From the NCBI GenBank assembly GCA_947457465.1, contig CANGWB010000002.1, forward strand, positions 62,001 through 126,000: a stretch of DNA of 64,000 nt, read 5' to 3'. The notes below the pieces were generated by a model that was not told the DNA's origin, searched no databases, and saw only the letters and a list, made by a program, of their open reading frames with translations. Within the stretch, counting starts at the first letter, position 1; every line of letters begins with the position of its first letter. This DNA is from Chitinophagaceae bacterium (GTDB taxonomy: Bacteria; Bacteroidota; Bacteroidia; Chitinophagales; Chitinophagaceae). A program made the translations under genes and the position numbers. Below are positions 9,639 through 61,895 of this stretch, piece after piece.

Positions 9639-10628
9639 ATGAAGGACACTCGAACCATCAAATCCATACTGACTTATGCATTGGCGCCGTTACTGCTGAT
9701 CATCTTGTCGGTATCTGTATATCGGGAGATAAGCTCACAAACGGATCTGCCGGCTGCTTGGGAACAGATCAAAGGGTCCTTGTTCAGTCCACGTATCGGT
9801 TGGCTACTGGCTGCAGTGGTAGGAACGTTTTTAAACTGGGGACTCGAAGCGTTGAAATGGCAGCGGCTGATGCGGCAGACGGAGCAGATTAGATTCATGC
9901 AAGCATTCAAAGGGGTGTTGACCGGTGTCTCCTTCACCTTGTTCACACCGAATCGGATCGGAGAGTACTTGGGTCGGATCTGGCATTTATCGCCTGCCAG
10001 TCGGGGTGCAGCTGTTTCCTTAAGTGTTGCAGGGGGCATTGCACAACTCCTTGTAACGGTTTTGGGGGGAATGATCGCCTATGAATTTCTATGGCGTGGC
10101 GGTTTTTCCATACCCATCTTACCGGATCGAGCTTTCGCTTTTTTCCCTTTTCAATGGCTGGGGTGGTCGGTCGTGATCTTATTATTCGTGATCTATTTCA
10201 ATCTGGGAGAGGCCGGTAGTTTTTTATCAAGAGTCCGTTGGCTTCAGAAAATCAAAAACTGGATGATGGCGCTGGTTCATTTATCGAGACGTGAATCAGC
10301 CACTATTTTAGGTTTGTCCCTGCTGCGCTATTCGATATTTCTGCTACAGTATTATGCCTTGTTCCAATTCTTCGGCGTTTCACTTACGGTTTCAATATCG
10401 TTTATCACGGTTGCCTTCGTTTTTCTTTCGATGGCCTTGATCCCTGCTATGGCGCTGGCCGATCTGGGCATAAGAGGGCAACTTTCTTTGTGGATCGTGG
10501 GTGCGTTCAATGCAAATCTATTGGGCATCGTTATGGCAACTACAACGATCTGGTTCATCAATCTGATCTTACCGGCGGTAGTTGGGGCTGCTTTTCTATC
10601 GAAAAGAAAGTTAAAAGGTGAAGGATGA
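9639..10628 (+). CDS. Lysylphosphatidylglycerol synthase TM-region family membrane protein
   Basis: This is an integral membrane protein of 329 aa with about eight hydrophobic helices. It has family landmarks of the UPF0104/AglD-like group: WLLAAVVGTFLNWGLEALKW, GVLTGVSFTLFTPNRIGEYLGR, and a C-terminal ADLGIRGQ block. These proteins are membrane flippase-like domains; the aminoacyl-transfer domain of MprF is absent, so the role is unknown. The ATG at 9639 avoids overlap with ruvC; the longer frame starts at 9603. The last residues (KLKGEG) and the stop are written by the left arm of a heptad palindrome. Confidence 0.78.
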   Translation: MKDTRTIKSILTYALAPLLLIILSVSVYREISSQTDLPAAWEQIKGSLFSPRIGWLLAAVVGTFLNWGLEALKWQRLMRQTEQIRFMQAFKGVLTGVSFTLFTPNRIGEYLGRIWHLSPASRGAAVSLSVAGGIAQLLVTVLGGMIAYEFLWRGGFSIPILPDRAFAFFPFQWLGWSVVILLFVIYFNLGEAGSFLSRVRWLQKIKNWMMALVHLSRRESATILGLSLLRYSIFLLQYYALFQFFGVSLTVSISFITVAFVFLSMALIPAMALADLGIRGQLSLWIVGAFNANLLGIVMATTTIWFINLILPAVVGAAFLSKRKLKGEG

Positions 10629-10664
10629 AAAGTGAATTTCACCCTTCACCTTTCACCCTTCAAC
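10610..10664. repeat. Heptad palindrome R1 (27-nt arms)
   Basis: The left arm (10610-10636) is GTTAAAA GGTGAAG GATGAAA AGTGAA and the right arm (10638-10664) is TTCACCC TTCACCT TTCACCC TTCAAC. Each arm is 27 nt and only one base separates them. Twenty-one of 27 positions are complementary, and all differences are transitions. The left arm contains the TGA of the flippase-like gene, and the right arm ends three bases before the MBL gene stop on the other strand. Candidate 3'-end hairpin or bidirectional terminator. Confidence 0.85.
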
Positions 10665-10667
10665 TCA

Positions 10668-11528
10668 CTATAGTTCTCGTACTGAAACGAAATCCTTCAC
10701 TCTCACGCCCTTCTCCGTTCGCTCCAGTGTCGCGCATTCATGCAACGCATCGTGCTCGAAGAATAGGATATAGTCTTTTTCTGCTGCTTCATTCAAAAAC
10801 ATTTTCTTTTCCTGCAGTGTGGTGAGCGGAAACATATCATAGGCCATCACCCAGGGAAGTGGCAGATGCGCGGCGAAGGGAAGCAGGTCGGCACAGAAGA
10901 CGATCGTGTGTCCATTGTATTCAATTTGGGGCAGCATCATCTTATCGGTATGACCGTTAACGAAACGGACAGCGATATTCGGAAACAGGTCGCTTTTACC
11001 AAGATGACCATGATGCGTTTCTGTCACCTCAATGAATTTCAGCTGACCGGATTCCTGGATCGGAAGAATATTCTCTTTCAGGAAGGAGGCTTTTTCGCGT
11101 TCATTTGGATTGACAGCCCAATCCCAATGATCGGCATTGCTCCAGTACGTCGCATTCGGAAAACTTGGACGAAATCCCTCTCCTTGTCTTTCGATCGCTC
11201 CACCACAATGATCGAAATGCAAATGGGTCAGGAGCACATCAGTAATATCACTGGTTGAAAATCCGTGTTGTTTGAGAGAAGCCTTGAGCGTATCGGCTCC
11301 GTTCAGATCGTAGTGGCTGAAAAATTTTGGGTCTTGTTTGTCGCCGATACCGGTGTCGATCAGGATCAAACGGTTGCCGTCTTCGATCAACAGACAACGC
11401 ATCGACATTTGGATGCGGTTATTCGCATCGGCCTCATGTTGTTTGTTCCAAAGTGTTTTGGGTACCACACCGAACATGGCGCCGCCATCCAATTTGAAAT
11501 ATCCTGTTTCGATACTATGCAGTTGCAT
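10668..11528 (-). CDS. MBL-fold metallo-hydrolase (lactonase-like)
   Basis: This is a metallo-beta-lactamase-fold enzyme of 286 aa. It has the zinc motif THLHFDH (H102, H104, D106, H107), followed by further likely ligands in ETHHGH and GHTDKMM. The layout (N-terminal GYFKLDGGAMFGVVPK, then the metal motif, then DLLPFAAHLPLPW) resembles the AttM/AhlB-like and methyl-parathion-hydrolase-like branches. The substrate cannot be named. Its start overlaps the end of the upstream MFS gene by 14 bases, so the two are coupled. Confidence 0.85.
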   Translation of the reverse strand: MQLHSIETGYFKLDGGAMFGVVPKTLWNKQHEADANNRIQMSMRCLLIEDGNRLILIDTGIGDKQDPKFFSHYDLNGADTLKASLKQHGFSTSDITDVLLTHLHFDHCGGAIERQGEGFRPSFPNATYWSNADHWDWAVNPNEREKASFLKENILPIQESGQLKFIEVTETHHGHLGKSDLFPNIAVRFVNGHTDKMMLPQIEYNGHTIVFCADLLPFAAHLPLPWVMAYDMFPLTTLQEKKMFLNEAAEKDYILFFEHDALHECATLERTEKGVRVKDFVSVREL

Positions 11529-12834
11529 TTGTTTCTTCTTTTATACGATCGGTATAAGCGAGTAAGAAAAATCCGATCACAAAAAATACCATCAATACCA
11601 GCACGGAATTACGTTGAGAGCCGGTCAGCTCGGTAATGTAACCGAATCCGAACATCCCGATCACGGTCGCAACCTTTTCCGTTACGTCATAAAAACTAAA
11701 ATACGAGGCCGTATCCTTCGTAACCGGCATCAGTTTTGAATAGGTGGAGCGGCTGATGGACTGTATACCACCCATCATGAATCCGACCAGCGAAGCCAAT
11801 CCATAAAACTCATAGATACCGCCCACGGGTAAAATATAGCCGATGTAGCAGCCCACGCACCAAAGCGCAACGAGGATCATGAGTGTTTTGATGTTGCCGA
11901 TGCGAGAGGAGATCCAGGAGATCGTGTAAGCGCCCGGTATGGCGATCAATTGGATCAGCAATATGGCAGCGATCAGATTGGTGGTGGGGATCTCCAGTTC
12001 ACTTTTTCCGTAAATGGTGGCTACGAGAAAAACCGTTTGTACGCCCATGTTGTAACAAAAGAAGGAGGCCAGGAAACGGCGGAGTTTGTGTTGGTCTTTC
12101 AGTTGATGCCATACTTTCTTCAATTCATGATATCCTTTTGAGAGGATGTGATGCTGAAGATCTCCTGTGCCGGCTGGGGTGGAGGGTGGCAGACGATTCA
12201 GTGCGATACTTCCGAAGCCGAACCACCAAATACCGACCATCAGAAAACAGATCCGGTACTGGATCGTGGTATCGTCGTTGCCGCCGAGTATTCCTGGATT
12301 GAATACAAACACGAAGCAAATGATTTGCAGCAATACGGATCCGATGTAACCGTAGGTGAATCCCCGCGCACTGACCCGGTCACGGTCTTCGGGTGCTGCG
12401 ATCTCGGGCAAATAGGAATTATAATACACCCAACTAGCCCAGAAACCCACACAGGCGAGGATCATGCAGATAAGTCCCAGTCCGAGTTTATCCCGTTCGA
12501 ACAGGAACATGCCGCTGCAGCCCAGACTTCCCAACGTCATGAAGAATCGCATGAAGCTGTGTTTGTTGCCTTTGTAATCTGCAATAGCGGAGAGTAGGGG
12601 TGAGAGAAAGGCAACGATGATCAGTGCCAGTGCGATGGTATAATTATACAGCGCAGAGTTTTCAAAGGTTCTTCCGAGAAAAGTCACTTGTGTTTTGGAA
12701 ACGCTACGGTCATCGACCGCAATCGCTTCAAAATAGGCTGGGAATATGGTGGACGTGATCACCAGATTATAAGAAGAATTGGCCCAGTCGTAGAGGGCCC
12801 AGCCGTTGATGACCCGGCGGGAGGCAGTTGGCAT
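11515..12834 (-). CDS. MFS transporter, UMF1 family
   Basis: This is a major-facilitator membrane protein of 439 aa with about 12 hydrophobic helices. The N-terminus NGWALYDWANSSYNLVI is the signature of the UMF1 subfamily (vacuolar effluxer-like in fungi). A large polar loop lies mid-protein (about residues 215-250). The substrate is unknown. It follows uppP on the same strand by 31 bases; a TATTTTTA element in that gap (12848-12855) could give it its own promoter. Confidence 0.87.
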   Translation of the reverse strand: MPTASRRVINGWALYDWANSSYNLVITSTIFPAYFEAIAVDDRSVSKTQVTFLGRTFENSALYNYTIALALIIVAFLSPLLSAIADYKGNKHSFMRFFMTLGSLGCSGMFLFERDKLGLGLICMILACVGFWASWVYYNSYLPEIAAPEDRDRVSARGFTYGYIGSVLLQIICFVFVFNPGILGGNDDTTIQYRICFLMVGIWWFGFGSIALNRLPPSTPAGTGDLQHHILSKGYHELKKVWHQLKDQHKLRRFLASFFCYNMGVQTVFLVATIYGKSELEIPTTNLIAAILLIQLIAIPGAYTISWISSRIGNIKTLMILVALWCVGCYIGYILPVGGIYEFYGLASLVGFMMGGIQSISRSTYSKLMPVTKDTASYFSFYDVTEKVATVIGMFGFGYITELTGSQRNSVLVLMVFFVIGFFLLAYTDRIKEETNATA

Positions 12835-12847
12835 GGCAAGGTTTTTC

Positions 12848-12855: not shown

Positions 12856-12865
12856 CGGAATGAAA

Positions 12866-13667: not shown

Positions 13668-13901
13668 TTAAGCCTGCTTGGGTTTGCGGAAAATAGCGAA
13701 GACCTCCACTACTAGACCGGCAAGGATCAGGATCGGCGCCACGGTGATACGAATCGGACTGTACAAGGCTTCTTTATTGAAAACTGCCGGATCTGTATTG
13801 CTTTTACCTCCCGACATCAAGAACATACCCAATGCGATCAGTACAAGACCGGCGAGCATCCAGATGTAGTTTTCTTTGTAGAAGAGTTTGGGGGAAGACA
13901 T
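13668..13901 (-). CDS. DUF3098 family small membrane protein
   Basis: This is a 77-aa protein with two membrane helices (YIWMLAGLVLIALGMFLMSG and VAPILILAGLVVEVFAIF), separated by a short polar loop containing FNKEALYSPIRIT. The size, the topology and the place between ftsX and uppP match the DUF3098 family, which is confined to Bacteroidota. Its function is unknown; conserved linkage to a cell-division gene and a lipid-carrier gene suggests an envelope role, which is inference. A heptad palindrome sits between it and ftsX. Confidence 0.85.
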   Translation of the reverse strand: MSSPKLFYKENYIWMLAGLVLIALGMFLMSGGKSNTDPAVFNKEALYSPIRITVAPILILAGLVVEVFAIFRKPKQA

Positions 13902-13909
13902 GGTAGAAG

Positions 13910-13992
13910 GTTGAAAGGTGAAAGATGAAGGATGAATTTATGTTGAAGGTTGTAGGTTGAAAGTTTTCACCGTTCACCCTTCATCCTTCAAC
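13910..13992. repeat. Heptad palindrome R2 (27-nt arms, 29-nt loop)
   Basis: The left arm (13910-13936) is GTTGAAA GGTGAAA GATGAAG GATGAA; the right arm (13966-13992) is TTCACCG TTCACCC TTCATCC TTCAAC. Each is 27 nt, and 21 of 27 positions are complementary. The loop holds a further partial run of the same units. The outer base of the right arm is also the last base of the ftsX TAG stop on the minus strand, so the repeat begins exactly at the stop. Confidence 0.87.
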
Positions 13993-14864
13993 TAATATAG
14001 GTCGTCTAATTTCATTTTTAAATACTTGATCACGCTTCGATGCGTACTGAACAAGGTGATGCCGATGCCGAGGAGTACGAGTCCGCCATACAGCATCGTC
14101 AAACTCTGCCAGTCACGGATCGTGCGCAGCTCAGGCAACAAGCGTTCAAAGAGCAGAATCACGCCCTGTACGAGCACGATCGCAATCCCACCGCTGATGC
14201 CACCGTTGATGATCGCTCGCTGATCCATCGGTTTGGCAATGAACCAACGGGTGGCTCCCACCATTTGCATGGTTTTGATGAGAAAGCGATTGCTGAACAT
14301 CGCCAGACGGATCGTATTATCGATCAAAATGATCACTACCGTTGCCAGCAGGATCGCGATCGCTAAGAGGATCAAGCTGATCCGTTGAATATTCTTGTTC
14401 AAATTATCTACCAGCGCTTGAGGATAGGAAACATTACTGATGTAGGTCTGTTTTTTCAGATCCGCTTGAATGATCAAAAGGGAATCGGCATTCATATAAG
14501 CCGGCTTCACTTTGAAATTGATGCTGTTCGGGAGCGGATTGGCATCCAATATCCCTTCCCAGGATTTGTTTCCATCTCCTAGAAAGATCTGTTTGGCTTT
14601 TTCCTTGTTGATGAATTCAAGCTCACGTACATAGGGTTGTGCGCCGATGTATGCCATCAGCGTTAAACTATCCTTTTTATTCAGATCCCCCCGGAGTTCG
14701 GCTCGAACCTCCACGCTCTCTTTGAAATAATCGCCCAGCTTATTGGCATTTATCACCAACCAGCCAACCACACCCAGCAGCATTAGCACGAGTGTGACGC
14801 CCAAAATGGACATGAAATAAGAGGGTTTGCCTCGTTTGATGGAAAGGTTGGAAGATCGATTCAT
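13992..14864 (-). CDS. ftsX: Cell-division ABC permease FtsX
   Basis: FtsX, with the ATPase FtsE, controls peptidoglycan hydrolases at the division site. The 290-aa protein shows the FtsX plan: a short basic N-terminus, one membrane helix (about residues 18-40), a periplasmic domain to about residue 165, and three C-terminal helices of the FtsX/MacB permease fold. The first helix is VTLVLMLLGVVGWLVI, and the C-terminal stretch includes MVGATRWFIAKPM. FtsE is not adjacent, as is common in Bacteroidota. A perfect -7 element lies 22 bases upstream. Confidence 0.93.
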   Translation of the reverse strand: MNRSSNLSIKRGKPSYFMSILGVTLVLMLLGVVGWLVINANKLGDYFKESVEVRAELRGDLNKKDSLTLMAYIGAQPYVRELEFINKEKAKQIFLGDGNKSWEGILDANPLPNSINFKVKPAYMNADSLLIIQADLKKQTYISNVSYPQALVDNLNKNIQRISLILLAIAILLATVVIILIDNTIRLAMFSNRFLIKTMQMVGATRWFIAKPMDQRAIINGGISGGIAIVLVQGVILLFERLLPELRTIRDWQSLTMLYGGLVLLGIGITLFSTHRSVIKYLKMKLDDLY

Positions 14865-14915: not shown

Positions 14916-14923
14916 TACTTTTG
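14916..14923 (+). promoter_or_regulatory. -7 promoter element of leuS
   Basis: TACTTTTG matches TAnnTTTG exactly and lies 51 bases before the leuS ATG at 14975. It is back to back with the ftsX promoter. Confidence 0.6.
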
Positions 14924-14974
14924 ACCCTCTTTTACAACGCCAAGGGAAGTCATATATTGCCCGGATCCTCCATC

Positions 14975-17764
14975 ATGGAATACAACTTCAACCAGATCGA
15001 AAAAAAATGGCGCTCCGCGTGGGAGCAAGCACAGGTTTATCGCGTTTCAAACGATTCGAGTCGCCCGAAATGCTATGTGCTCGACATGTTCCCTTATCCA
15101 AGTGGTGCCGGCCTTCATGTGGGGCATCCCCTCGGTTATATCGCATCGGATATTTACAGTCGTTTCAAGCGGCTGAAAGGGTTTAATGTGCTGCACCCGA
15201 TGGGATTCGACAGCTTTGGCTTGCCGGCGGAGCAATATGCACTCGATACCGGACAGCATCCGGCTGTTACCACACAGAAAAATATTTCGACTTTCCGTGC
15301 GCAGCTCGACAACATCGGATTCAGTTATGATTGGTCCCGCGAGGTGCGAACCAGCGACCCATCCTATTACAAGTGGACCCAGTGGATCTTTCTTGAGCTA
15401 TTCGATTCTTGGTATAATCGACAGACCCAACGGGCCGAACGCATCGAAACCCTGAACCGGCTTTTTTCCCAACAGGGTTCTGCTGCCCCCGGTGTTCGCC
15501 CTACTGCATTTGTTTTCACCGCTGAACAATGGAATACTTTTTCGGAAAAGGAAAGGCTTGAGGTACTGATGGAACATCGGTTGGCCTATTGCGGATACGG
15601 TGAAGTGAATTGGTGTGAAGCACTCGGCACGGTGCTGGCGAATGATGAAGTTGTCAATGGTGTGAGTGAACGAGGCGGTCACCCCGTGGTGAAAAAGAAA
15701 TTGCGTCAATGGTATTTGCGCATCACGGAATATGCCGATCGCTTGCTCGACGGATTGCAAACAGTTGAGTTCAGTGATGCGATGAAGGAAATGCAATCCA
15801 ACTGGATCGGTCGCTCCTCCGGCGCAGAAGTCACTTTTCAAGTCTCTCAACCCTCATCCCTCAACCCTCAACCCGCACTCACCGTCTACACCACGCGCCC
15901 CGATACTATTTTCGGGGTTGACTTCTTGGTGCTGGCGCCCGAGCATGAAGTGGTCCCGTCACTGATCCATCCCGAACAGAAAGAGAAGGTGGAACAGTAC
16001 CTCACTTGGGTGAAAAGTCGGAGTGAGCGAGAGCGGATGGCTGAGAAGCAGATCAGCGGCGTTTTTACGGGTAGTTATGCCATTCATCCGTTCTCTAAAA
16101 AGCTCATTCCGATCTGGGTGGCTGAATATGTACTGGCCGGATATGGAACAGGTGCCATCATGGGCGTTCCTTGCGGCGACGAGCGCGATCATAAGTTCGC
16201 CAAACATTTTGAACTCCCCATCACAAACATACTTGGTGTTGGTTACAATGGAGAGGAGGCGAATCCGGATAAGAGTCTCACGCTTGAAAATTCCGATTTC
16301 CTAAATGGAATGAAAATGTCGGATGCTATCGAAGCGGCGATACAACGGATCGAGCAGGATGGTATCGGAAAACGACAAGTGAATTATAAGATTCGCGATG
16401 CAGCATTCAGTCGCCAACGTTATTGGGGTGAACCTTTTCCCATTCTTTGGAAAGAAGGCGTGGCCCATCCGATGGATTCCACTGAATTGCCGTTGGAGCT
16501 TCCGCATGTAGACAGTTATAAGCCTGGACCGGATGCACAAGGTCCGCTGGCCAACATCACCGATTGGATGCAGGTGGGCGATGCGCAACGCGAGACCAAC
16601 ACCATGCCCGGTTATGCGGGATCCTCTTGGTATTTCCTGCGGTTCATGGATCCGAATAATGATAGTGCCTTTTGCGATAGTACCATTTCTGACTATTGGA
16701 ATCAGGTCGATCTCTATGTGGGCGGTACGGAGCATGCGGTTGGACATTTGCTTTACAGTCGTATGTGGACCAAGATCCTGTTCGATCTGGGACACATTTC
16801 CTTTGACGAACCGTTCAAGCGGCTGCTCAATCAGGGAATGATACAAGGAAGCAGTCGGTTTGTCTATCGGGTGCGTGGTACTCATAAATATGTTTCAGCC
16901 GGATTGAAATCCAACTATGAAGTAGATCCATTACACGTTGATGTGAATCTGGTCGACGGATTCGAGCTCAACACCGAAGCCTTCCGCCAATGGCGTCCGG
17001 AATACGCGCAAGCTGAATTTGAGTTGGAGGATGGTAAATACATCTGCGGCGCGGAGGTGGAGAAAATGTCCAAGTCTAAGTTCAATACGGTCAACCCCGA
17101 TGATCTGGTGGCTAAATACGGAGCGGATACGTTTCGTATGTATGAGATGTTCTTAGGTCCGGTCGAACTCAGCAAGCCATGGGATACCAAAGGAATCGAA
17201 GGGGTTCATCGGTTTTTGAAAAAATGCTGGCGTCTTTTTTACAATACAGATAATGGATGGCAAGTCAACGAGGATAAAGCAACGGCTGAGGAGTTGAAGG
17301 TGCTGCATCAAACCATCCGAAAAATTGAGAACGACACGGAGCGATTCAGTTTCAATACTGCGGTGAGTCAATTCATGATCGCCGTGAATGAACTGACCGA
17401 TCTGAATTGTCACAAGAAAGAGATTCTTTTGCCCTTGTTGGTGTTATTGCAACCATACGCACCTCATTTCACGGAAGAGTTGTATTCCACGTTGGAGCCA
17501 GGAAAAGCATTGCCTGCCGGGAAGGGACTGATGGGTGAATCATATCCTGTCTTTGATGAGCGTTTTGTGAAGGAATCAACTAAGAAATATCCGGTTGCGA
17601 TAAACGGAAAGACCCGACAGGAGTTGGAGTTGTCACTGGATGCGACCGCCGAGCAAGTAGACGAGCTGGTTCGACAGGATGCAGTTGTACTCAAATGGAT
17701 GGAAGGACGTCCGATCAAAAAGGTGATCTACGTGCCCGGTAAAATGATCAACGTGGTGGGATAG
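14975..17764 (+). CDS. leuS: Leucyl-tRNA synthetase
   Basis: LeuRS charges tRNA-Leu. The ATG at 14975 (MEYNFNQIEKKWR) gives 929 aa, the usual size; a frame from 14867 adds an unrelated N-terminus. It has the HIGH motif HVGH at residues 48-51 and KMSKS at 697-701. The CP1 editing domain contains the threonine-rich motif TTRPDT at 306-311. Just before it, residues about 290-302 (VSQPSSLNPQPAL) are encoded by a run of 7-nt repeats of the same type found between genes here. There is also a Bacteroidota-type insert of about 60 residues before KMSKS. Confidence 0.97.
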   Translation: MEYNFNQIEKKWRSAWEQAQVYRVSNDSSRPKCYVLDMFPYPSGAGLHVGHPLGYIASDIYSRFKRLKGFNVLHPMGFDSFGLPAEQYALDTGQHPAVTTQKNISTFRAQLDNIGFSYDWSREVRTSDPSYYKWTQWIFLELFDSWYNRQTQRAERIETLNRLFSQQGSAAPGVRPTAFVFTAEQWNTFSEKERLEVLMEHRLAYCGYGEVNWCEALGTVLANDEVVNGVSERGGHPVVKKKLRQWYLRITEYADRLLDGLQTVEFSDAMKEMQSNWIGRSSGAEVTFQVSQPSSLNPQPALTVYTTRPDTIFGVDFLVLAPEHEVVPSLIHPEQKEKVEQYLTWVKSRSERERMAEKQISGVFTGSYAIHPFSKKLIPIWVAEYVLAGYGTGAIMGVPCGDERDHKFAKHFELPITNILGVGYNGEEANPDKSLTLENSDFLNGMKMSDAIEAAIQRIEQDGIGKRQVNYKIRDAAFSRQRYWGEPFPILWKEGVAHPMDSTELPLELPHVDSYKPGPDAQGPLANITDWMQVGDAQRETNTMPGYAGSSWYFLRFMDPNNDSAFCDSTISDYWNQVDLYVGGTEHAVGHLLYSRMWTKILFDLGHISFDEPFKRLLNQGMIQGSSRFVYRVRGTHKYVSAGLKSNYEVDPLHVDVNLVDGFELNTEAFRQWRPEYAQAEFELEDGKYICGAEVEKMSKSKFNTVNPDDLVAKYGADTFRMYEMFLGPVELSKPWDTKGIEGVHRFLKKCWRLFYNTDNGWQVNEDKATAEELKVLHQTIRKIENDTERFSFNTAVSQFMIAVNELTDLNCHKKEILLPLLVLLQPYAPHFTEELYSTLEPGKALPAGKGLMGESYPVFDERFVKESTKKYPVAINGKTRQELELSLDATAEQVDELVRQDAVVLKWMEGRPIKKVIYVPGKMINVVG
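15844..15871 (+). repeat. In-frame heptad array inside leuS
   Basis: Four 7-nt units CTCTCAA CCCTCAT CCCTCAA CCCTCAA stand in the coding sequence of the LeuRS editing domain. The same units occur outside genes at 56605-56646. Because 7 is not a multiple of 3, the codons shift phase from unit to unit, giving a Ser/Gln/Pro/Leu/Asn-rich loop. Confidence 0.85.
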
Positions 17765-22655: not shown

Positions 22656-25600
22656 ATGAGGAAATTTTACTTCCTGTTGATCGCCACTCTTTTTTCGTTA
22701 GTCACGTTTTCTCAGAGCTCGGCGAATTACACGTTTTCATTAGCTACGAATGGCTCAATGGTATTAGATCGAAATGGTGGTGCTACTGATATGTTAAGCG
22801 GCACAACCACTTTGTTGGGCCCGGGCAATGATGATGTGGCTTCGAGTATTTTCAATATTGGTTTTGACTTTCAATTCATGGGAGTTAACTACTCTCAGTT
22901 TTCGGCCAGTTCAAACGGTTTTTTACGCCTGGGGTCTACCGCTGTGGCAACAACTGCTTCAAGCCAGACCGGTACAGCTACTGGTCCAATTATCACTGCA
23001 TTCGGTGGAGACCAGGCAACTGTAACTAATGTTGCAGCAAACAGTAAGGTTCACTATAAAGTTTTTGGTTCTGCTCCCAATAGGGTGTTGGTGGTAGAGT
23101 GGGCAAATATGAAGATTAACTTTAATGGAGCAACAACCGCTACAGCAGGTGATGGCACCTACCAGGTCCTTTTGTATGAGACCAGTGGAATCGTGGATTT
23201 GAAGTATGGTGCGATGAGTGTAGCCACTGCTTTTACAACAGGTCCCGTCATTGGTTTTTCTGCAGGTACTACAGCGGGGGCCATCGCTAGTATAACTTCT
23301 TCTTCCAACGGGATTACTACCAATGGTACGGCCTGGATCAACAATACATATACTACTGGAACGATTACTAATCTTCACTCAACCAGTGATGGTAGCAGAA
23401 GAGTTTATTCATTTGTCCCTCCCGTTGCACCAACAGCACCCTCTGGGTTGACTTTTTCCGCTATAGGTACTAGTGGCATGACGCTCAACTGGACAGACAA
23501 CTCTTCCAATGAGGTCGCTTTTGCCATATTTAGATCAACAGACGGAGTGAACTACACCTATGTAAATCAGGTAGCTGCAAATACAACTAGCTCTGCACAA
23601 ACGGGACTTTTAGGCTCTACTACATATTTTTGGAGAGTACATGCCATGAGTGAAGGGGTTCTTTCCGGCCCTGCAAGTGGTTCGCAGATCACTAATTCAT
23701 GTCCTACTATTTCTGCAGGAACTTATTCGGTTGGACCGACCGGTGACTATGCTAGTCTTACTGCCGTTGCAACTGCTTTGGAAAACGGCACCTCGGGCTC
23801 GGTAATATTTGAACTCCAGTCTACATACACTATTGCTCCCGAATCTTTCCCAATTACGTTCGCAGGGAGTGGTTGTTTGCTGACAGGAGGAGTAACTATT
23901 CGTCCGCAGGCATCTGTGTCTAGTATGTTGTCTGTGACCAGCTCCAACTCGACTGCTACTATTGTTTTGAGTGGTATTCAGAACCTGACGATCGATGGTC
24001 GTCCGGGAGGTACCGGTAGCGCCAAGCTACTAACCGTTGCAAATACCAGCTTGACTGGTACTGCTGTACGTTATGTTAATGATGCAATTTCAACTACCCT
24101 CCGATATGTTGTTTTGACCGGCGTAAATAGTGCTGCCGCCGGTGCGGTGGTTACTTTTGCCGGTACCACGGGTGCAATCGGAAATGATAATAATACGATT
24201 GATAATTGCGATATCCGTGACGGAGCCACAACGCCCACCATTGGTGTATACTCACTTGGGCAATCTGCTACCATTACGAATGATAACAATACTATATCTA
24301 ACTGTAATATTTTCAATTATTTTCAATCCGGGAATGCTACATCGGGTATTAATATAAATTCTTTTAACAGTAACTGGACTGTTACTGGCAATAGTTTCTA
24401 TCAAACTGCAACTAGAACCTCCACAGTAAGCAATCAGCATTCTGGCATTTTCATAAGCAATTCTGGCAGCGGTTATGTGATAACCGGGAACTTCATAGGA
24501 GGTGGTGCGCCTTCATGTGGTGGATCCGCTTGGCAGTTGTTAGGAGCGTTTACAAACCGTTTTGTGGGCATTTCAGTAAGTGCCGCTGCCACTGCCACTA
24601 CCAGCATTCAGGGTAACACCATCGCCAATATCACCACAAACACAAACTCCAGCGCATCAACCGCAAATGGAAACTTCAGTGCCATTTGGGTATCGGGCGG
24701 TAATGCTAATATCGGAACTGTTACTGGTAACACGATCGGTTCTACTACCGGTACTGGAAGCATCAACGTAACGCTTCAATCAAATTCTGGCGGCACCTCC
24801 AACCTAATCGCTTATTCTGGATCGGGTGTTGCTGACATCCGGAATAACACAATTGGGGCTGTTACCCTCACAGGTGCTACCGCAACCATTGGACTTGGAT
24901 TCAATGGAATTTTTGTTTCGGGCGGAACACCGACTATTATCGGTAACGCTGTTGGAAGTCTCGTCACATCTAATAGCATAAATTCGGTTACCGCTTTCAC
25001 TGGAACCTCTACCGGTCATCAAACGGTAACAGGTATAAATGTCACTACAGGCGTAACCACTGCTACCACGATCAGCAACAATACAGTTTCCAACCTAAAT
25101 CAGAGTGGTACGTCTACCGTCCCCACAATTCGTGGTATTGTTTATTCCGGTACCGGTAACGGTGTTATATCCTCAAATACTGTTTTCAATCTCACCGGTG
25201 CAACATCCAACACCTCCCAATCAGGTGGTGTGACCGGCGTTATTGGTATTGTTTACACTGGTAGCTCTGCCAACGCGGAAGTTTCCTTGAATACGGTTTA
25301 TAATATCAGTGCTACCAATTCCGGAGCGGTTTCAACTGTTGCCGCTGGTATAGGATACTCGAACCCAACCTCAGGTTCAGTATTTCGTAACAGCATCTAT
25401 GATATTCGAAACGCTTCAACTGGTACGACTGCCACTGCTCCGCCGATGGCTGTCGGTATATTACTTCGTGCTTTTACCGCGGCAACCATTTCCAATAATA
25501 TGATTTCGCTTGGGAATGCACAACCCACAAATACGCAATTCGTGGGTATACTAAATAGCTTCTCCACATTAACAGCACGGATTTACTATAACTCCGTCAA

Positions 25601-40750: not shown

Positions 40751-40754
40751 AGGG

Positions 40755-40762
40755 TAAAGATA
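40755..40762 (-). promoter_or_regulatory. Putative -7 element of copA-recQ
   Basis: On the minus strand TATCTTTA, one base from TAnnTTTG, four bases before the copA ATG at 40750. Confidence 0.45.
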
Positions 40763-40787
40763 CGCAATCGCCAAAGCAGGTTGGATG

Positions 40788-40851
40788 GTTTAGAAAGTTG
40801 AGAAGGTTTAGACTGCTCAACTTTCTAAACTCACTAAACTTTCTCAACTAT
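40788..40851. repeat. Nonamer palindrome between copA and tsaE
   Basis: The left arm (40788-40814) has three 9-nt units GTTTAGAAA GTTGAGAAG GTTTAGACT; the right arm (40816-40851) has four, CTCAACTTT CTAAACTCA CTAAACTTT CTCAACTAT. A perfect 15-bp pairing (40788-40802 with 40816-40830) competes with a 15-of-16 pairing (40796-40811 with 40834-40849). The last unit supplies the first bases of the tsaE -7 element. Confidence 0.8.
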
Positions 40852-40856
40852 ATTCG
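40849..40856 (+). promoter_or_regulatory. -7 promoter element of tsaE
   Basis: TATATTCG is one base from TAnnTTTG and ends four bases before the ATG at 40861. Its first three bases belong to the last nonamer of the palindrome. Confidence 0.5.
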
Positions 40857-40860
40857 CTGC

Positions 40861-48537: not shown

Positions 48538-49014
48538 ATGAAAAAGCTGATTTTCGCCGCGATCCTTTCCACTACTTGTATCCTTGCCCAAGCACAACCC
48601 CCTGCCGGTGATGCCAATGCGGGAGATAGCTATGGATCGAAGTTCACTGTTACAGAAGTGATGAACATCAATGATGTGGTGAAGAAACTCAAAGGTGGTT
48701 CTGAATTCCAGGAAGTACAGGTTTCTGCCAAAGTGCTGGAGGTCTGCGCCAAAAAAGGATGCTGGTTGAAACTGGAACTGGCAAATGGAGAAACCGCGAC
48801 CGTTAAGATGAAAGATTATGGTTTCTTTTTGCCTGTAGCAGCTGTCGGTAAGAATGTTGTGATCAACGGAACAGTCAACCTGAAAAACGTATCCGTAGCG
48901 GAGCAGAAACACTATGCAGAAGATGCCAAGAAATCACAGGCGGAGATCGACGCTATCAAAGAAGCCAAGCAGGAAGTTCGTGTACTGGCCAGCGGTATCG
49001 TGATCGCCCAGTGA
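48538..49014 (+). CDS. DUF4920-family periplasmic protein
   Basis: This is a 158-aa protein with a signal peptide ending AQAQ. The mature part resembles the OB-fold DUF4920 family: VQVSAKVLEVCAKKGCWLKLEL with a conserved Cys pair, and MKDYGFFLPVAAVGKNVVI. The function is unknown. It lies 50 bases after the SET gene, and a heptad palindrome begins three bases after its stop. Confidence 0.86.
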   Translation: MKKLIFAAILSTTCILAQAQPPAGDANAGDSYGSKFTVTEVMNINDVVKKLKGGSEFQEVQVSAKVLEVCAKKGCWLKLELANGETATVKMKDYGFFLPVAAVGKNVVINGTVNLKNVSVAEQKHYAEDAKKSQAEIDAIKEAKQEVRVLASGIVIAQ

Positions 49015-49017
49015 GGT

Positions 49018-49094
49018 GTTGAGGGATGAGAGGCGAGGGTTGAGATTTTTCTAAACAAATCTCATCTTTCATCCTTCATCTCTCATCCTTCCTC
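49018..49094. repeat. Heptad palindrome R3
   Basis: The left arm (49018-49045) is GTTGAGG GATGAGA GGCGAGG GTTGAGA; the right arm (49060-49094) is TCTCATC TTTCATC CTTCATC TCTCATC CTTCCTC. The arms now differ in unit number (four and five) and pair imperfectly. It lies between DUF4920 and the TonB receptor gene, three bases after the DUF4920 stop. Confidence 0.75.
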
Positions 49095-49152: not shown

Positions 49153-51264
49153 ATGCGATTGGTAGTATTCATTTTATTCCTTCTCCTTTCAAGCACCTCT
49201 TTATTGGCGCAGGCCGATTCACTGCGAAACCTGCAAGAAGTGGTGATCACCGCTACACGCCAGGAAAGACGCCTGGGCAATGTGGCCGTTCCCGTAACCC
49301 TTATTCAGCAGCAGCAGATCCGCCAGGCCGGTTCGCTCCGACTCCGTGATATTCTGCAGGAGCAAAGCGGACTCGTGATGACCAGCGCTTTCGGGGTGGG
49401 GGTGCAGATGCAGGGACTGAATCCGGAGCATACATTGATCTTGGTGGACGGACAGCCGCTGGTCGGAAGAACCTCCGGCGTATTGGATCTGAACCGGATC
49501 GCATTGGCCGGTATCAAGCGCATCGAGATCGTAAAGGGCCCTTCTTCGAGCTTATATGGATCCGAAGCCATGGCCGGTGTCATCAATCTCATTACGGAAG
49601 CTCCGGGCAAAAAAGAAATTTCCGGCTCCATCCGTTACGGAACAGGTAATCCTGACAAAGGATGGGCTTTGCCTTTTGCTTCGAGCGGATTTCAGCAAGT
49701 TGATGCTGATCTGCAGGTAGGATATCAGGTTGGTAAATGGAAGTTCCGCCACAGCAATAATTATCTCTACAACGACGGAATCAGCTTTCGTCCGTTTTCG
49801 ACCGACCGAATTCCCCGTCCGATCAACCGACTGACGCATCAAACCACCCTGCTTCGTCCCATCGGAGAACGAACCGAATTCAAACTACTTCTCCGCGCCA
49901 ATCAGGATAAGATCGAGCAGGAATTCGCGGTACGAAACAATGGACAGATCATTGAATCCTATGGGCGTGAGAAAAACACGGAGTGGAATATTCAGCCTAC
50001 CGTCACGTACCGAGCGAGTCAACGTTTGGCTCTTCATTCAAGAGGGTTCTTCACTCGTTACGTCGGCGATCAGCGATTGTTCTTCGTACAAAAACCGGAT
50101 AGCAGTTATCTCGATCGTTTCGAACAACATCTTTATCGTTTCGAGCAACAACTTGATTGGACCATCGGTCGCTCTGAATGGATTTTCGGTGCCGGTTATC
50201 AGATCGATCAGGCTCGTTCCACCCGATACGATGCATTGGACAATCGCAAACAGAACCGTGTAGCCTACGCATTCGCACAGTGGGAATGGAAGCTCAATGA
50301 AAAGTGGATCTCAGTGGCCGGGATGCGATACGACGATAATCAATTGTTCGCAGCTGCTCTTACGCCGAAATGGTCGCTTCGTTATAAGCCCAATGAGAAA
50401 TGGTCGGTGCAGGCTTCGGTCGGACAAGGATTCAAGGCCCCCGATTTCAGGCAACTCTATTTGAATTTCACCAACAATGCCGCAGGTGGTTATTCAGTCT
50501 ATGGTACACAGGATGCCATTCGCATCATCAACGAGTTGAACCGTCTCGGACAGATCGCGGAGCTGCAACCCGATTTTAGCAAACTAGCTGATCTGACTCC
50601 CGAGTACTCAACCGGAACCAATCTGGGTGTTACCTATCAGCCGAAACAAACGATAACGGTTCGATTCAACGGATTTCGAAATGATATTCGCTCACTCATA
50701 GATGTTCGACAAGTGGCCACCCGCATCGATGGGGCACAGATCTTCAGCTACCTGAATGTAAAGCGTGCCTATACGTATGGATTGGAATCCGAATTCAACT
50801 GGCAATTCCATTCCAAATGGACAATGCAGACCGGTTATCAATGGCTTCGCACGGGGGATAAAGACGAACTCGACCGCATCAAAAAAGGATTGGAGTACAC
50901 ACGGGCCCCTGACGGATCGAGTCGGGTGATGACTCTTCACGAATATGTTGGACTCCCGAATCGCAGTGAACACCAGGCGCAGTTCAAACTGCGTTACCAG
51001 CCGGCCGAACATCGATTTGTGTTTTTGCGGTTGCTCTATCGGAGTCGGTGGACCATCGCCAATAGCAATGGTAACGGCGTGCATGATGTACAGGATGAAT
51101 ATGCAAACGGCTTTCTGCAGATTAACTTATCCGGTGGCATACCGCTGCGAAAAAACATCCAGTTGCAGGCAGGCATTGAAAATCTCCTGAATTACCAAGA
51201 CGTAAACTACCTGCCCAATTTCCCCGGTCGTAACATTTATATGACCCTAAACTTCAAACTCTAA
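49153..51264 (+). CDS. TonB-dependent receptor (HmuR-like)
   Basis: This is an outer-membrane active transporter of 703 aa. After a signal peptide (ending LLAQ) comes the TonB-box-like LQEVVITATR and the plug domain with LRDILQEQSG, QGLNPEHTLILVDGQPL and KGPSSSLYGSEAMAGVINLIT. The 22-strand barrel follows, with the terminal NIYMTLNFKL ending in an aromatic residue. It lacks the carboxypeptidase-like extension of SusC proteins, so it is a classic metal/heme receptor. The next gene encodes a HmuY-like protein, which points to heme as substrate. Confidence 0.93.
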   Translation: MRLVVFILFLLLSSTSLLAQADSLRNLQEVVITATRQERRLGNVAVPVTLIQQQQIRQAGSLRLRDILQEQSGLVMTSAFGVGVQMQGLNPEHTLILVDGQPLVGRTSGVLDLNRIALAGIKRIEIVKGPSSSLYGSEAMAGVINLITEAPGKKEISGSIRYGTGNPDKGWALPFASSGFQQVDADLQVGYQVGKWKFRHSNNYLYNDGISFRPFSTDRIPRPINRLTHQTTLLRPIGERTEFKLLLRANQDKIEQEFAVRNNGQIIESYGREKNTEWNIQPTVTYRASQRLALHSRGFFTRYVGDQRLFFVQKPDSSYLDRFEQHLYRFEQQLDWTIGRSEWIFGAGYQIDQARSTRYDALDNRKQNRVAYAFAQWEWKLNEKWISVAGMRYDDNQLFAAALTPKWSLRYKPNEKWSVQASVGQGFKAPDFRQLYLNFTNNAAGGYSVYGTQDAIRIINELNRLGQIAELQPDFSKLADLTPEYSTGTNLGVTYQPKQTITVRFNGFRNDIRSLIDVRQVATRIDGAQIFSYLNVKRAYTYGLESEFNWQFHSKWTMQTGYQWLRTGDKDELDRIKKGLEYTRAPDGSSRVMTLHEYVGLPNRSEHQAQFKLRYQPAEHRFVFLRLLYRSRWTIANSNGNGVHDVQDEYANGFLQINLSGGIPLRKNIQLQAGIENLLNYQDVNYLPNFPGRNIYMTLNFKL

Positions 51265-51282
51265 ACTCTAAATCATATCCTT

Positions 51283-51921
51283 ATGCGTTTTCAACTCCTC
51301 CTTCTGACTTCTCTAGTTTCTTTCGTTGCTTGTGAGAAAGACAAGCCTACCCCCACGATCGATCAGCGTGCTTATTCCGTGACCACCAGTGGTAATGTAG
51401 TTACGGTTCGAAATCTTCCTGGTGACACGATCATCGGGGTCAGTGCTCAGGGCCAGCCCGTGGGTGCAGGACGGTATACATTCTTCAGCCTGGAATCTGG
51501 TCAATGGATCCCCAATGCTGATTCAAATTCTAACCGTTGGGATCTTGCCTTTGCCGGCACGATTGTACGCGTGAATAATCTGACCAGCGGACCGGGTAGC
51601 GGGGGCGGGTTCGTGTTCAATGGGTCCTTCGAATCACTTACTTCTGTACCGGTTGATTCAACCTTCCGTCTTGATAACCATCCGGTATCTTATGCGATCC
51701 CTCGCGGATCGGGTCGCGCCTGGTATACGTATGATGGTCCCACCAACCTGCTGACCCCCATTCCCGGTCGCACACTGGTGATCCGCACCGCCAATGGGCA
51801 GCGTGCCAAGGTAGAGATCCTCAACTATTACCGTGGTGGCAGTACGCCCTCCACTTCCGCTGCCGACAGCATCAAGATCCGCGATCAGCGCTTCTTTCAT
51901 TTCCGATACTCGAAATTCTAG
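51283..51921 (+). CDS. HmuY-family lipoprotein
   Basis: This is a 212-aa predicted lipoprotein (Cys17, SFVAC). It has the HmuY layout: FSLESGQWIPNADSNSNRWD near the middle, followed by beta-rich strands (VRVNNL, WYTYDGPTN, LVIRTANGQRAKVEIL) and a C-terminal FHFRYSKF. HmuY proteins take heme from host or environmental carriers and pass it to the HmuR-type receptor, here the gene just upstream. The last base of its TAG stop is the first base of a heptad palindrome. Confidence 0.87.
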   Translation: MRFQLLLLTSLVSFVACEKDKPTPTIDQRAYSVTTSGNVVTVRNLPGDTIIGVSAQGQPVGAGRYTFFSLESGQWIPNADSNSNRWDLAFAGTIVRVNNLTSGPGSGGGFVFNGSFESLTSVPVDSTFRLDNHPVSYAIPRGSGRAWYTYDGPTNLLTPIPGRTLVIRTANGQRAKVEILNYYRGGSTPSTSAADSIKIRDQRFFHFRYSKF

Positions 51922-52008
51922 TTGAAAAGTGAGGGGTGAAAGATGAACCGCCTCTAATTATTCATCCTTCATCCTTCATCCTTCATCCTTCATCCTTCAT
52001 CATTCAAC
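51921..52008. repeat. Heptad palindrome R4 with an expanded right arm
   Basis: The left arm (51921-51947) is GTTGAAA AGTGAGG GGTGAAA GATGAA, 27 nt. The right arm (51961-52008) has five identical TTCATCC units, then TTCATCA and TTCAAC, 48 nt. The right arm therefore has seven units where R1 and R2 have four. It fills most of the hmuY-ileS gap. Confidence 0.9.
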
Positions 52009-55459: not shown

Positions 55460-56503
55460 ATGGCCATCAAGAAAAAACCCGCACCCAAGAAAGCTGCCAA
55501 GCCCGCTGCTAAAGCGAAGCCAGTTGCTAAAAAACCGGCTCCTAAAGCTAAACCTGCAGCTAAAAAGCCAGTAGCTAAAGCTAAGCCCGTCGCTAAAGCC
55601 AAACCAGTCGCTAAACCAGTAGCCAAGCCTGCTGCAAAAAAGCCTGCTGCCAAACCAGCAGCTAAGCCGGCCGCCAAACCCGCGGCGAAGCCTGTTGCTA
55701 AACCGGTTGCCAAGCCAGTAGTCAAAGCACCTGCTAAACCTGCGGCGAAACCGGTGGCAAAACCTGTAGCTAAAGCGCCTGTTAAGCCTGCGGCCAAACC
55801 GGTTGTGGCAAAACCTGTAGCAAAAGCACCTGCAAAGCCTGCCGCGAAGCCAGTATCGGCCAGCAAGCCTGCTGCACCTGCCAAGCCGGTTGTTGCTGCT
55901 GCGCCTGCACCTAAACCGGCACCTGCTCCTGTACCGCCTGCAAAACCTATAGCTAAGAAGAATGATCCTTCCAGCTTGGTCTCGATCAAGCCGAAGGCAG
56001 CGGTGGCAACCAAAAAAGAACCTCCTCGTCCGGCCAAAGTGGTGATGCCCAAACTCACTACCCGAAGCGCGGTTAAATACGAACCTGATTTCACTCGTTC
56101 TGTACTGGATTCTAAGCCCAGCTTACCGTCCGGACCAACCATGCGTTATTCCGATTCGGATCTGGCTGAATTCCGCGAGATCATCAGTCGTAAACTGGAT
56201 TCTGCCAAGAAGGAACTCGCGTATTTGCAAGGACTCATCACCCGCAAGGATGAAAGTGGTGATTTCGAGGATGCTCGCTACATGACCATGGAAGATGGCA
56301 GCGTAAGCATGGAGCGTGAACAATTGAGTCAGATGGCCAGTCGTCAGATCACCTTCATCGACCACCTCGAGAAGGCACTGATGCGCATCGAGAACAAGAC
56401 CTATGGTGTTTGCCGCGTCACCGGTAAACTCATCGATAAAGCGCGCCTCCGCGCTGTTCCGCACGCCACCCTCAGTATTGAGGCGAAGCAAATGCGGAAG
56501 TAG
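55460..56503 (+). CDS. TraR/DksA-family protein with histone H1-like N-terminal tail
   Basis: This 347-aa protein has two parts. Residues 2 to about 165 are a Lys/Ala/Pro/Val tail built of PAAKP/PVAKP-like repeats, like eukaryotic histone H1 tails. After a linker, residues from about 222 (MRYSDSDLAEF) form a DksA-like coiled coil followed by GVCRVTGKLIDKARLRAVPHAT, the Bacteroidota version of the zinc-finger region with only one of the four cysteines. DksA binds RNA polymerase; the tail could bind DNA or other polyanions. It starts three bases after ileS. Confidence 0.9.
   Translation: MAIKKKPAPKKAAKPAAKAKPVAKKPAPKAKPAAKKPVAKAKPVAKAKPVAKPVAKPAAKKPAAKPAAKPAAKPAAKPVAKPVAKPVVKAPAKPAAKPVAKPVAKAPVKPAAKPVVAKPVAKAPAKPAAKPVSASKPAAPAKPVVAAAPAPKPAPAPVPPAKPIAKKNDPSSLVSIKPKAAVATKKEPPRPAKVVMPKLTTRSAVKYEPDFTRSVLDSKPSLPSGPTMRYSDSDLAEFREIISRKLDSAKKELAYLQGLITRKDESGDFEDARYMTMEDGSVSMEREQLSQMASRQITFIDHLEKALMRIENKTYGVCRVTGKLIDKARLRAVPHATLSIEAKQMRK
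55466..55965 (+). repeat. Low-complexity AAR/GCY/CCN codon repeat region of the dksA-like gene
   Basis: The tail is coded by short degenerate repeats (GCTAAACC, GCCAAGCC and variants). Third bases vary between copies, so the protein repeat is kept under selection while the DNA has diverged. The opposite strand keeps a long open frame only because of this composition. Confidence 0.85.
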
Positions 56504-56509: not shown

Positions 56510-56583
56510 GTTGAAAGATGAGGGATGAATGGTGAGAATAGAAAGTGATTAATTTATCGCTCGCTTCTCACCATTCATCCCTC
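56510..56583. repeat. Heptad palindrome R5 with a perfect 19-bp stem
   Basis: The left arm (56510-56538) is GTTGAAA GATGAGG GATGAAT GGTGAGAA. Bases 56520-56538 pair perfectly over 19 bp with 56565-56583 (TTCTCACCATTCATCCCTC), with a 26-nt loop. It begins six bases after the dksA-like stop. Confidence 0.9.
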
Positions 56584-56604: not shown

Positions 56605-56646
56605 CCCTCATCTCTCAACTCTCATCCCTCATCTCTCAACCCTCCA
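56605..56646 (+). repeat. Single-arm heptad array before the PhoD-like gene
   Basis: Six units CCCTCAT CTCTCAA CTCTCAT CCCTCAT CTCTCAA CCCTCCA run up to two bases before the ATG at 56648. They are the same units as in the leuS array. They occupy the place of the ribosome-binding region. Confidence 0.8.
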
Positions 56647-57985: not shown

Positions 57986-57988
57986 CAC

Positions 57989-59057: not shown

Positions 59058-59082
59058 CAACCTATAAACAAAACCTTAACAC

Positions 59083-59319
59083 ATGTCAGACATCGCATCT
59101 CGAGTCAAAAAGATCATCGTGGACAAACTGGGTGTGGATGAAGCAGAGGTGACCAACGAGGCCTCTTTCACCAACGACCTGGGAGCGGATTCTTTGGATA
59201 CCGTTGAACTCATCATGGAGTTTGAAAAAGAGTTCAACCTTTCCATCCCCGATGAGCAGGCTGAAACCATCACTACGGTGGGACAGGCTATTTCCTATTT
59301 GGAAGAGCATTCCAAATAA
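59083..59319 (+). CDS. acpP: Acyl carrier protein
   Basis: ACP carries growing acyl chains on a phosphopantetheine arm in fatty acid synthesis. The 78-aa acidic protein has the attachment site S37 in [10 protein letters not shown] and the usual four-helix sequence ([13 protein letters not shown] at the start, EEHSK at the end). It has its own promoter and terminator and is followed by fabF. Confidence 0.98.
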
Positions 59320-59370
59320 GTTGACTCCGAGTCGTCAGCCGAACTTCGACGAAACGACCGATACATGATT

Positions 59371-59413
59371 AACCGCCTTCTTGATCGGAATCCCGGCTTG
59401 AGAAGGCGGTTTT
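59371..59413 (+). terminator. Terminator of acpP
   Basis: A perfect 11-pair stem AACCGCCTTCT (59371-59381) / AGAAGGCGGTT (59401-59411) and a short T run. It lies between acpP and fabF and could be an attenuator, since the two genes act together. Confidence 0.85.
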
Positions 59414-59445
59414 CATTAATCCATTCTTCTGATTAACTTTCCTAT

Positions 59446-61414: not shown

Positions 61415-61426
61415 AATTTCAGGCTA

Positions 61427-61816
61427 TTAAGCTGGTTGGATGAGATCCCATTTATTGCCATAGAGATCTTCGAACACGATCACTTTTCCGAATGACTCAG
61501 TAACTGGTCCGCGTACAATACGAATATCTTCTTTTCGAAGACGGATCTCATAGGAATCAATGTCGTCGGTGTACATGAAAAGAAATACACGTCCGCCTGT
61601 CTGATCACCCACTCGGCTCCGTTGATGTTCATCCGCTGCTTTAGCCAGTAACAACTGGCAACTGTTTTTTCCGGGCGATACCACCACCCAGCGCTTTGTT
61701 TCGCTCATCACAGTATCCTCGATCAAGTCAAAGCCTAATTTGTTGACATAAAACTCGATCGCCTCATCATAATCCCGAACCACCAACGCGATCTGAAAAA
61801 GCTTTTGATTGGACAC
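61427..61816 (-). CDS. VOC-family (glyoxalase-like) protein
   Basis: This is a small vicinal-oxygen-chelate protein of 129 aa with two beta-alpha-beta-beta-beta units: FQIALVVRDYDEAIEFYVNKLGF, RWVVVSPG, then VFLFMYTDD, IVFEDLYGNKWDLIQP. The enzyme or binding role is not clear. It follows the methylmalonyl-CoA epimerase gene on the same strand, across the heptad array. Confidence 0.85.
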   Translation of the reverse strand: MSNQKLFQIALVVRDYDEAIEFYVNKLGFDLIEDTVMSETKRWVVVSPGKNSCQLLLAKAADEHQRSRVGDQTGGRVFLFMYTDDIDSYEIRLRKEDIRIVRGPVTESFGKVIVFEDLYGNKWDLIQPA

Positions 61817-61839
61817 GTTTGTACTTTTTGAAAAATTAT

Positions 61840-61895
61840 TTCATCCTTCATCTCTCATCCTTCACCCTTCACCCTTCACCCTTCACCCTCTCTCC
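61840..61895 (+). repeat. Single-arm heptad array between mce and the VOC gene
   Basis: Eight 7-nt units: TTCATCC TTCATCT CTCATCC then four TTCACCC and TCTCTCC. No opposite arm is present. The TGA stop of mce (minus strand, 61883-61885) lies in the last TTCACCC unit, so the repeat writes the last residues and the stop. Confidence 0.88.

Follow-up and report, generated by a model that had tools for sequence, protein, structure and literature searches.

Known repeats at bacterial gene ends

Repetitive extragenic palindromic (REP) sequences and bacterial interspersed mosaic elements (BIME) are dispersed extragenic palindromes that occur in many copies and form hairpins in the message. The elements reported here, a family of palindromes composed of 7-nucleotide (nt) units in a 64,000 nt stretch of a Chitinophagaceae bacterium genome (assembly GCA_947457465.1, contig CANGWB010000002.1, positions 62,001 to 126,000; referred to as the window), resemble them in these respects. 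REP/BIME are often located at most 15 nt from stop codons, and passages of the two reports concerned describe a translational effect only close to the stop (PMC12306157, PMC3733652). The heptad elements differ from REP/BIME in that they are made of tandem arms with 7 or 8 nt units, the GTAG/CGTC tag is not the rule, their words differ at orthologous sites and five genomes that carry them are without a match to the Y1 transposase. It is proposed, with a probability of slightly under one half (roughly 0.46), that the palindromes represent a class of stop-anchored hairpins in the Chitinophagaceae and near kin, which would function as REP-like RNA hairpins that form a roadblock to exonucleases or ribosomes and whose arrays would turn over fast.

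Units of 7 nt are over-represented among bacterial tandem repeats, and passages of the same report describe G-rich heptamers (GGGAATC in Xanthomonas, GGGGAYT in Nostoc) that are intergenic, lie near or overlap stop codons, occur preferentially as four units, are under-represented between divergent genes and are sometimes found as inverted pairs; transcript starts or stops in Xanthomonas are more frequent at heptad repeats that form quadruplexes than at a control set (PMC4692102). The window elements share the 7 nt unit, the intergenic location and the proximity to stop codons, but the Xanthomonas-type words form quadruplexes whereas here many private words and inverted hairpin arms are found. 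Quadruplex G-tracts are not typical, the G3N1-7 motif being present in two of 29 elements of the genome that contains the window (15845-15872 and 61839-61887) and in one of 115 hairpin arrays. Heptamer-derived satellites also occur in bacteria, as noted in a passage of PMC6749651. According to passages of a further report, direct repeats of TAACTGA, a heptad with stops in all frames, occur in Beggiatoaceae, Cyanobacteria and five Bacteroidetes (PMC4679880). The same letters lie within the Pinibacter octad ATAACTGA, which also has all-frame stops; the TAACTGA repeats differ in consisting of one word, which in Maribeggiatoa is found mostly just upstream of starts and as direct repeats with one inverted case (PMC4679880). 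Intrinsic terminators likewise place a hairpin at gene ends, but the heptad hairpins lack a T-run, have the opposite arm polarity and abut the stop codon. The tandem heptanucleotides of Calothrix go by the name of short tandemly repeated repetitive (STRR) sequences, and the short tandem 7 nt unit is what the window elements have in common with them. The passage on these cyanobacterial heptanucleotides does not describe stop-codon hairpins with word replacement (PMC4692102). Among the papers listed by a literature search, with subscription journals mostly outside its coverage, none describes private-word 7 or 8 nt stop-codon hairpins in Chitinophagaceae or word replacement.

Heptad hairpins in the window

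In tandem and convergent gaps the G-rich array either begins at the stop codon or overlaps it, and an inverted copy comes next. The window contains five such two-armed elements, R1 to R5, with the layout (GNTGARR)n, spacer and inverse, all of which are predicted to fold as RNA on both strands (z -3.1 to -9.8 relative to mononucleotide shuffles), in addition to the one-strand array R6. Coordinates are window positions unless a contig is given, and genes were called by a hexamer-based caller, with predicted starts. R1 (10610-10664) is situated between the convergent genes 9639-10628 (+) and 10668-11528 (-), and the TGA of the former makes up one unit of its 5' arm; its predicted fold has a z of -5.7 on the plus and -9.7 on the minus strand. 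R2 (13903-13992) lies behind the stop of ftsX (13992-14864, -), whose TAG overlaps the first unit; its opposite end is 1 nt from the start of gene 13668-13901 (-), and a third, inner array is located between its two arms. R3 (49018-49094) begins 3 nt behind the stop of a DUF4920 gene (48538-49014, +), and R4 (51921-52008), the right array of which has seven units, overlaps the TAG of an HmuY-like gene (51283-51921, +) with ileS 37 nt downstream. R5 (56510-56583) begins 6 nt behind the stop of a dksA-like gene (55460-56503, +) and has an outer array (56605-56646), whose predicted partner is the outer portion of the 56510 arm. R6 (61839-61887) carries its G-strand on the minus strand, includes the stop of a glyoxalase gene (61883-62350, -) and forms no hairpin. 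A scan of the window with Rfam gave no match at the gathering score.

All heptad arrays named in the first-pass annotation, which was made from the sequence alone, are present where it placed them. Its claim of proximity to stop codons is confirmed by the gene calls, with a stop inside every one of the five palindromes or at 0-6 nt from it, as is that of a stop codon within the array at 61840. Arms of exactly 27 nt are found at 10610-10636, 13910-13936, 13966-13992 and 51921-51947; the R1 right arm, for which the same length had been given, is 28 nt long and begins with the unit GTTAAAA. Of the two arrays that had been described as single-armed, R6 is confined to one strand without a predicted fold, and 56605-56646 is predicted to have a partner in the 56510 arm.

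Dispersal and placement at stop codons

The window belongs to a genome of 2.06 Mb and 46 contigs (G000), and the named loci nearest to it are from Bacteroidota and Chitinophagaceae metagenome-assembled genomes (MAGs). Three heptad units occur at 119+139 places in G000 when up to one mismatch is allowed and at 80+94 places without mismatch, as opposed to 2+7 and 0+1 places for the reversed pattern. Because this control is nearly empty, the unit is above chance, in agreement with the earlier description of a palindrome family dispersed in the genome. In 464 kb of G000, comprising the window and 20 further stretches, 29 elements were identified, of which 16 lie in tandem gaps, seven in convergent gaps, four in divergent gaps and two inside genes; gaps of at least 60 nt in this sample number 86, 12 and 45, respectively. 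Two of the 20 stretches (C2:126001-146000 and C4:1-20000, with 8 of the 29 elements) were chosen at pattern matches, as were most stretches of the related genomes G007 and G040, the G083 contigs and three further stretches, while synteny decided the choice of the G023 stretch and the G081 stretch was taken blindly from a genome rich in words; element rates in these sets are therefore not genome averages.

The anchoring to stop codons is pronounced. Of 40 sense 5' arms in tandem gaps, 37 begin at most 25 nt from the upstream stop and 34 at most 15 nt, where random placement in the same gaps puts 13.0 within 25 nt (standard deviation 2.8, maximum 23 in 5000 draws). Hairpin arrays amount to 0.77 per kb of gap between convergent genes, 0.46 between tandem and 0.12 between divergent genes. 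The stop is TAA in only 3 of 45 element-bearing genes compared to 265 of 592 others (G000, G007 and G040), since the first unit and the stop often have a TGA or TAG in common. An in-phase TGA is present in 10 of 15 cases, a count that is partly circular as the arrays carry all-frame stops, and which is not used as proof. A truncation artefact, in which reading frames simply run into all-frame stops, was considered and rejected because protein ends mostly match those of relatives: the difference is at most 2 residues for 17 of 22 element-bearing genes and 111 of 122 others, and larger for the remaining five element-bearing genes.

The 3' arms in tandem gaps end at most 15 nt before the next start in 11 of 46 cases. 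Among the 31 that are at least 20 nt from the next start, six have the sequence TAnnTT[TC]G, which we take to be a promoter motif, before that start (mean 0.9 and maximum 4 in shuffles). Seemingly, then, some hairpins are located within transcription units and others between them.

Private words and a shared period

The words are private to each carrier genome, which uses a small number of them at tens to hundreds of sites. Among 42 genomes of the genus, the exact three-unit heptad word is found at 174 places in G000, 114 in G007, 113 in G040 and nine in G036, at one to three places in G004, G023 and G041, and in none of the other 35. The reversed control of GDTGARR is abundant in G027 (40+87) and G018 (21+11), which may perhaps use words resembling the reversed pattern. 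RTAACTGA occurs at 230, 648 and 581 places in Pinibacter soli (G079), P. aurantiacus (G080) and Chitinophagaceae bacterium 26-R-25 (G081), respectively, and is absent from 13 other genomes, its reversed control giving 3+12 in G084 and otherwise nothing. AGWCCGRA occurs at 361 places in G083, 51 in G085 and 42 in G078, and GTTTAGN at 39 in G023, 17 in G007 and 11 in G027, each with 0-3 places in other genomes; the reversed control of GTTTAGN gives 17+14 in G086 and 5-7 in G079-G081. Among the matches listed, examined by eye, copies at most 150 nt apart are in plus-then-minus order in 14 of 14 cases for RTAACTGA and 24 of 24 for AGWCCGRA. A single fixed heptad design does not hold, as the word is lineage-specific and octads occur too.

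The periodicity can also be recovered independently of any word. Across 644 gaps of 80 named loci, self-similarity is detected at lag 7 in 25 gaps, at lag 8 in 12 and at lag 14 in 10, with 0-2 gaps at each of the remaining lags between 3 and 15; shuffled gaps score once per round at every lag, which is taken as one degenerate gap. Arrays with a 7 or 8 nt period are present in 27 of 105 gaps in 200 kb of G081 and in 19 of 111 gaps in 185 kb of G083, both word-rich genomes, with several words in each. Elsewhere they are rare, being present in 6 of 136 gaps of 20 stretches from the order and 2 of 148 gaps of 20 Bacteroidota stretches, and in none of 25 gaps in 50 kb of Escherichia coli K-12. Arrays with a detected partner are confined to the named loci and to G081, G083, G000, G007, G023 and G040. 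A perfect (CTTTTGC)13 array at L079 14940-15030, from a Bacteroidetes MAG, is a candidate for strain-level length variation.

Different words at orthologous gene ends

Between species, the words differ at the same gene ends while the place, the period, the inverted layout and the G-rich-first order persist. By eye, the ftsX ends of relatives display GTTTAGN, GGAAAGT, AGCGAGA, AGTCCGGA, ATAACTGA, ATAGACC and other words. In a comparison that is blind to the unit, orthologous ends in G007, G023 or G040 have a 7 or 8 nt period in 8 of 18 cases if G000 carries an element there, and in 0 of 45 if none is present in G000; G007 contributes 5 of 8 versus 0 of 18 (P = 0.0009), G023 1 of 6 versus 0 of 18 (P = 0.25) and G040 2 of 4 versus 0 of 9 (P = 0.08), the stretches of G007 and G040 being mostly those chosen at matches. 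G040 is a close relative of G000, with ileS 98% identical. For R1-R4 the flanks are 89-97% identical between the two genomes and the elements only 59-88%, with lengths of 63/83, 90/88, 81/84 and 93/64; R5 and R6 have no match in the G040 stretches compared. The proposal that length and unit number are shared while sequence drifts is thus borne out, with stronger support across species than within the window, although word length, folding and place only tend to be kept while the words change.

The gene order around R3 and R4 also differs among the relatives. In G000 a 703-residue gene, for which a TonB-type receptor is only a guess, and the HmuY-like gene (together 49153-51921) separate the DUF4920 gene from ileS, and in G007 (L153) and G023 (L154) the DUF4920 gene is directly upstream of ileS. 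The ends of the DUF4920 and HmuY-like genes in G000 each bear a heptad hairpin. A second palindrome, CCTGCCTGCCGGCAGG(CAGG), is present inside heptad elements, namely at G000 C2:136560-136624 (L129) and in the orthologous G040 element, and is possibly another dispersed repeat family.

Arm pairing, polarity and stops

Among 81 ftsX ends the 5' half pairs better with its own 3' half than with those of others (means 23.3 versus 17.5; reached in none of 20000 permutations), the own half being the best of all partners in 11 of the 81. Among the eight strongest hairpins of this set, the median best identity between 5' arms is only 38%. A partner was detected for 115 of the 207 arrays located in tandem and convergent gaps. 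The G-rich arm comes first in every two-arm pair detected (13 in G000, six in G007 and four in G040), and the 5' arm has more G than C in all 44 hairpin arrays and in 16 of the 17 clusters of words; purines exceed one half of the 5' arm in 13 of the 17. These clusters were merged at a Hamming distance of 2, which is loose and makes the cluster counts rough.

One stop per unit covers all frames because 7 and 8 are not multiples of three. All-frame stops are found in the sense strand of 37 of the 44 arrays and the antisense strand of seven, and in 632 control tails in 106 and 69, respectively. Stops are not required, as AGWCCGRA and some other words are without one.

Other arrays and repeats in the window

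Three arrays in the window had not been listed before. A heptad array at 15845-15872, with its G-strand antisense (-), lies inside the open reading frame (ORF) 14921-17764 (+) and is one of the two in-gene cases among the 29 elements. Related GTTTAG/GTTGAG inverted repeats (GTTTAG/CTAAAC arrays) are located at 40788-40849 in the divergent gap 40751-40860, and a related CTAAACT heptad array (51247-51272) lies at the 3' end of gene 49153-51264 (+). Repeats of other kinds comprise period-9 and period-3 DNA repeats at 30347-30679 in a 4035-residue ORF (22656-34763) and a long run of 18-48 nt tandem repeats at 55498-55848 inside the dksA-like gene.

Possible roles and origin of the hairpins

The placement at stops, the predicted folds and the orthologous ends support the 3'-end hairpin that had been suggested for the family, and the role that we infer for it is the following. 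The mRNA would fold into a hairpin directly behind the stop codon, which may act like a REP by blocking 3' exonucleases or by holding the terminating ribosome. In this way it would set the product level of the upstream gene, both inside operons and at operon ends, and the all-frame stops in the 5' arm of many words could protect the stem from being melted by ribosomes that have slipped or read through. Slippage inside an array, together with template switching or gene conversion among copies with a common stop trinucleotide, would renew the copies. The letters of the word would be free, because only fold, place and period would matter. A bolder version, which appears rather unlikely, is that the Chitinophagaceae keep a letter-free signal in the form of stop-codon hairpins with a 7 or 8 nt step, the geometry being inherited and selected and the word rewritten genome-wide at times. 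Such a signal would need a writer with a 7-8 nt step and a reader that senses shape rather than sequence. The hairpins may also be protein-binding elements, another of the early suggestions.

A number of observations weigh against the REP-like reading. Divergent gaps hold 29 arrays, 92 of the 207 arrays in tandem and convergent gaps are without a detected partner, and no fold was obtained in RNA prediction for R6 (61838-61890). The family is patchy: stretches from 18 other members of the genus show a 7 or 8 nt period in only 2 of their 92 gaps, and paired arrays are absent from the samples of 18 genus, 20 order and 20 phylum stretches and of E. coli; most ftsX ends are non-periodic by program, 14 of 80 scoring at lag 7 or 8 and one at lag 12. 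Counted by cluster, all-frame stops are less one-sided (sense 11 of 17, antisense 6 of 17), and the word clusters may be related by descent, so that the polarity counts would not be independent. Within a genome, pairing is no better for own than for exchanged arms, the own sum being reached in 7784 of 20000 permutations in G000 (13 pairs), 17839 of 20000 in G007 (six pairs) and 4948 of 20000 in G040 (four pairs). Pairing thus arises from word sharing, and arm-by-arm compensatory change within a genome, for which this exchange was the test, was not found. The first-pass annotation had staked the family on placement that is not random and on an excess of complementary arms: the former is evident (37 of 40 versus 13.0 expected), and the latter exists between lineages, not within one genome. 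The lack of compensation leaves room for neutral or selfish arrays, words that slippage and gene conversion spread and that survive behind stops, where they do least harm, with a hairpin that has no job. This explanation is a possible one, if somewhat doubtful, and would also account for the fast divergence of the elements between G000 and G040, the many partnerless arrays and the patchy distribution of words private to lineages, and the scarcity in divergent gaps could stem from the promoters there. It is at odds with sites that retain their period despite a change of word (8 of 18 versus 0 of 45) and with an inverted layout that has the G-rich arm first in 16 of 17 word clusters, and avoidance of harm alone does not explain inverted arms.

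A bidirectional terminator had also been considered for the palindromes. In its classical form it can be rejected, as stable hairpins are predicted but the T-run directly after the stem is absent: 75 sense 3' edges contain on average 2.60 T in 8 nt compared to a background of 2.57, and at least five T of eight are found at 7 of 75 edges against a background of 12%. Likewise, of the 46 3' arms in tandem gaps 11 come to within 15 nt of the next start, and for standard terminators in these data the median start is at 27 nt, with a lean towards C first (G>C in 84 and G<C in 115 of 245). A passage on E. coli reports that a terminator a few bp behind the stop codon is repressed by the ribosome (PMC4824070), and REPs at most 15 nt from the stop stall ribosomes, as told in PMC12306157; these accounts make the position of the heptad hairpins favour a REP-like role over that of a standard terminator. 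The same observations count against non-standard bidirectional terminators, in which a weak hybrid of pyrimidine RNA and purine DNA (rY:dR) under the pyrimidine-rich 3' arm would replace the U-tract or Rho would assist, and which we regard as improbable. In their favour are the location at gene ends in convergent and tandem gaps, the Xanthomonas transcript ends at quadruplex-forming heptads mentioned above and the situation at the dksA-like gene, where a G+C-rich hairpin with a T-run is visible by eye in at least 15 of the 20 other genus genomes shown, from which it follows that a hairpin of some kind is usual at this gene end. Moreover, a heptad array and a standard terminator coincide at only one of 64 heptad ends (convergent, or tandem with a gap of at least 60 nt) where about eight are expected, a mutual exclusion that is only suggestive because the element fills the space. 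Mobilisation by a transposase, as for REP elements with their REP-associated tyrosine transposase (RAYT) or for miniature inverted-repeat transposable elements (MITE), is very improbable, even though the elements are dispersed, lineage-specific inverted repeats at 3' ends and one of them has an 8 nt flanking direct repeat. No match to the PF01797 Y1 (RAYT) transposase and no reverse transcriptase was found in G000 (100% complete), G007, G023, G036 (91%) and G040 (72%), and both generators were accordingly rejected. Flanking direct repeats indicative of target duplication occur in one of 14 two-armed elements (random 1.59), the REP tag is seen at the element edge in few cases (GTAG 3 of 29, CGTC 1 of 29), and simple insertion does not account for different words at orthologous sites.

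Implications

If the reading of the palindromes as REP-like stop-codon hairpins is correct, many genes of a bacterial family close with a signal that is set by period and fold rather than by sequence, and which would be invisible to motif searches and to models of the Rfam type. The cause of the excess of 7 nt units in bacterial tandem repeats and the role of hairpins at stop codons would then become testable, and cultured carriers with hundreds of copies, such as Pinibacter, permit direct tests.

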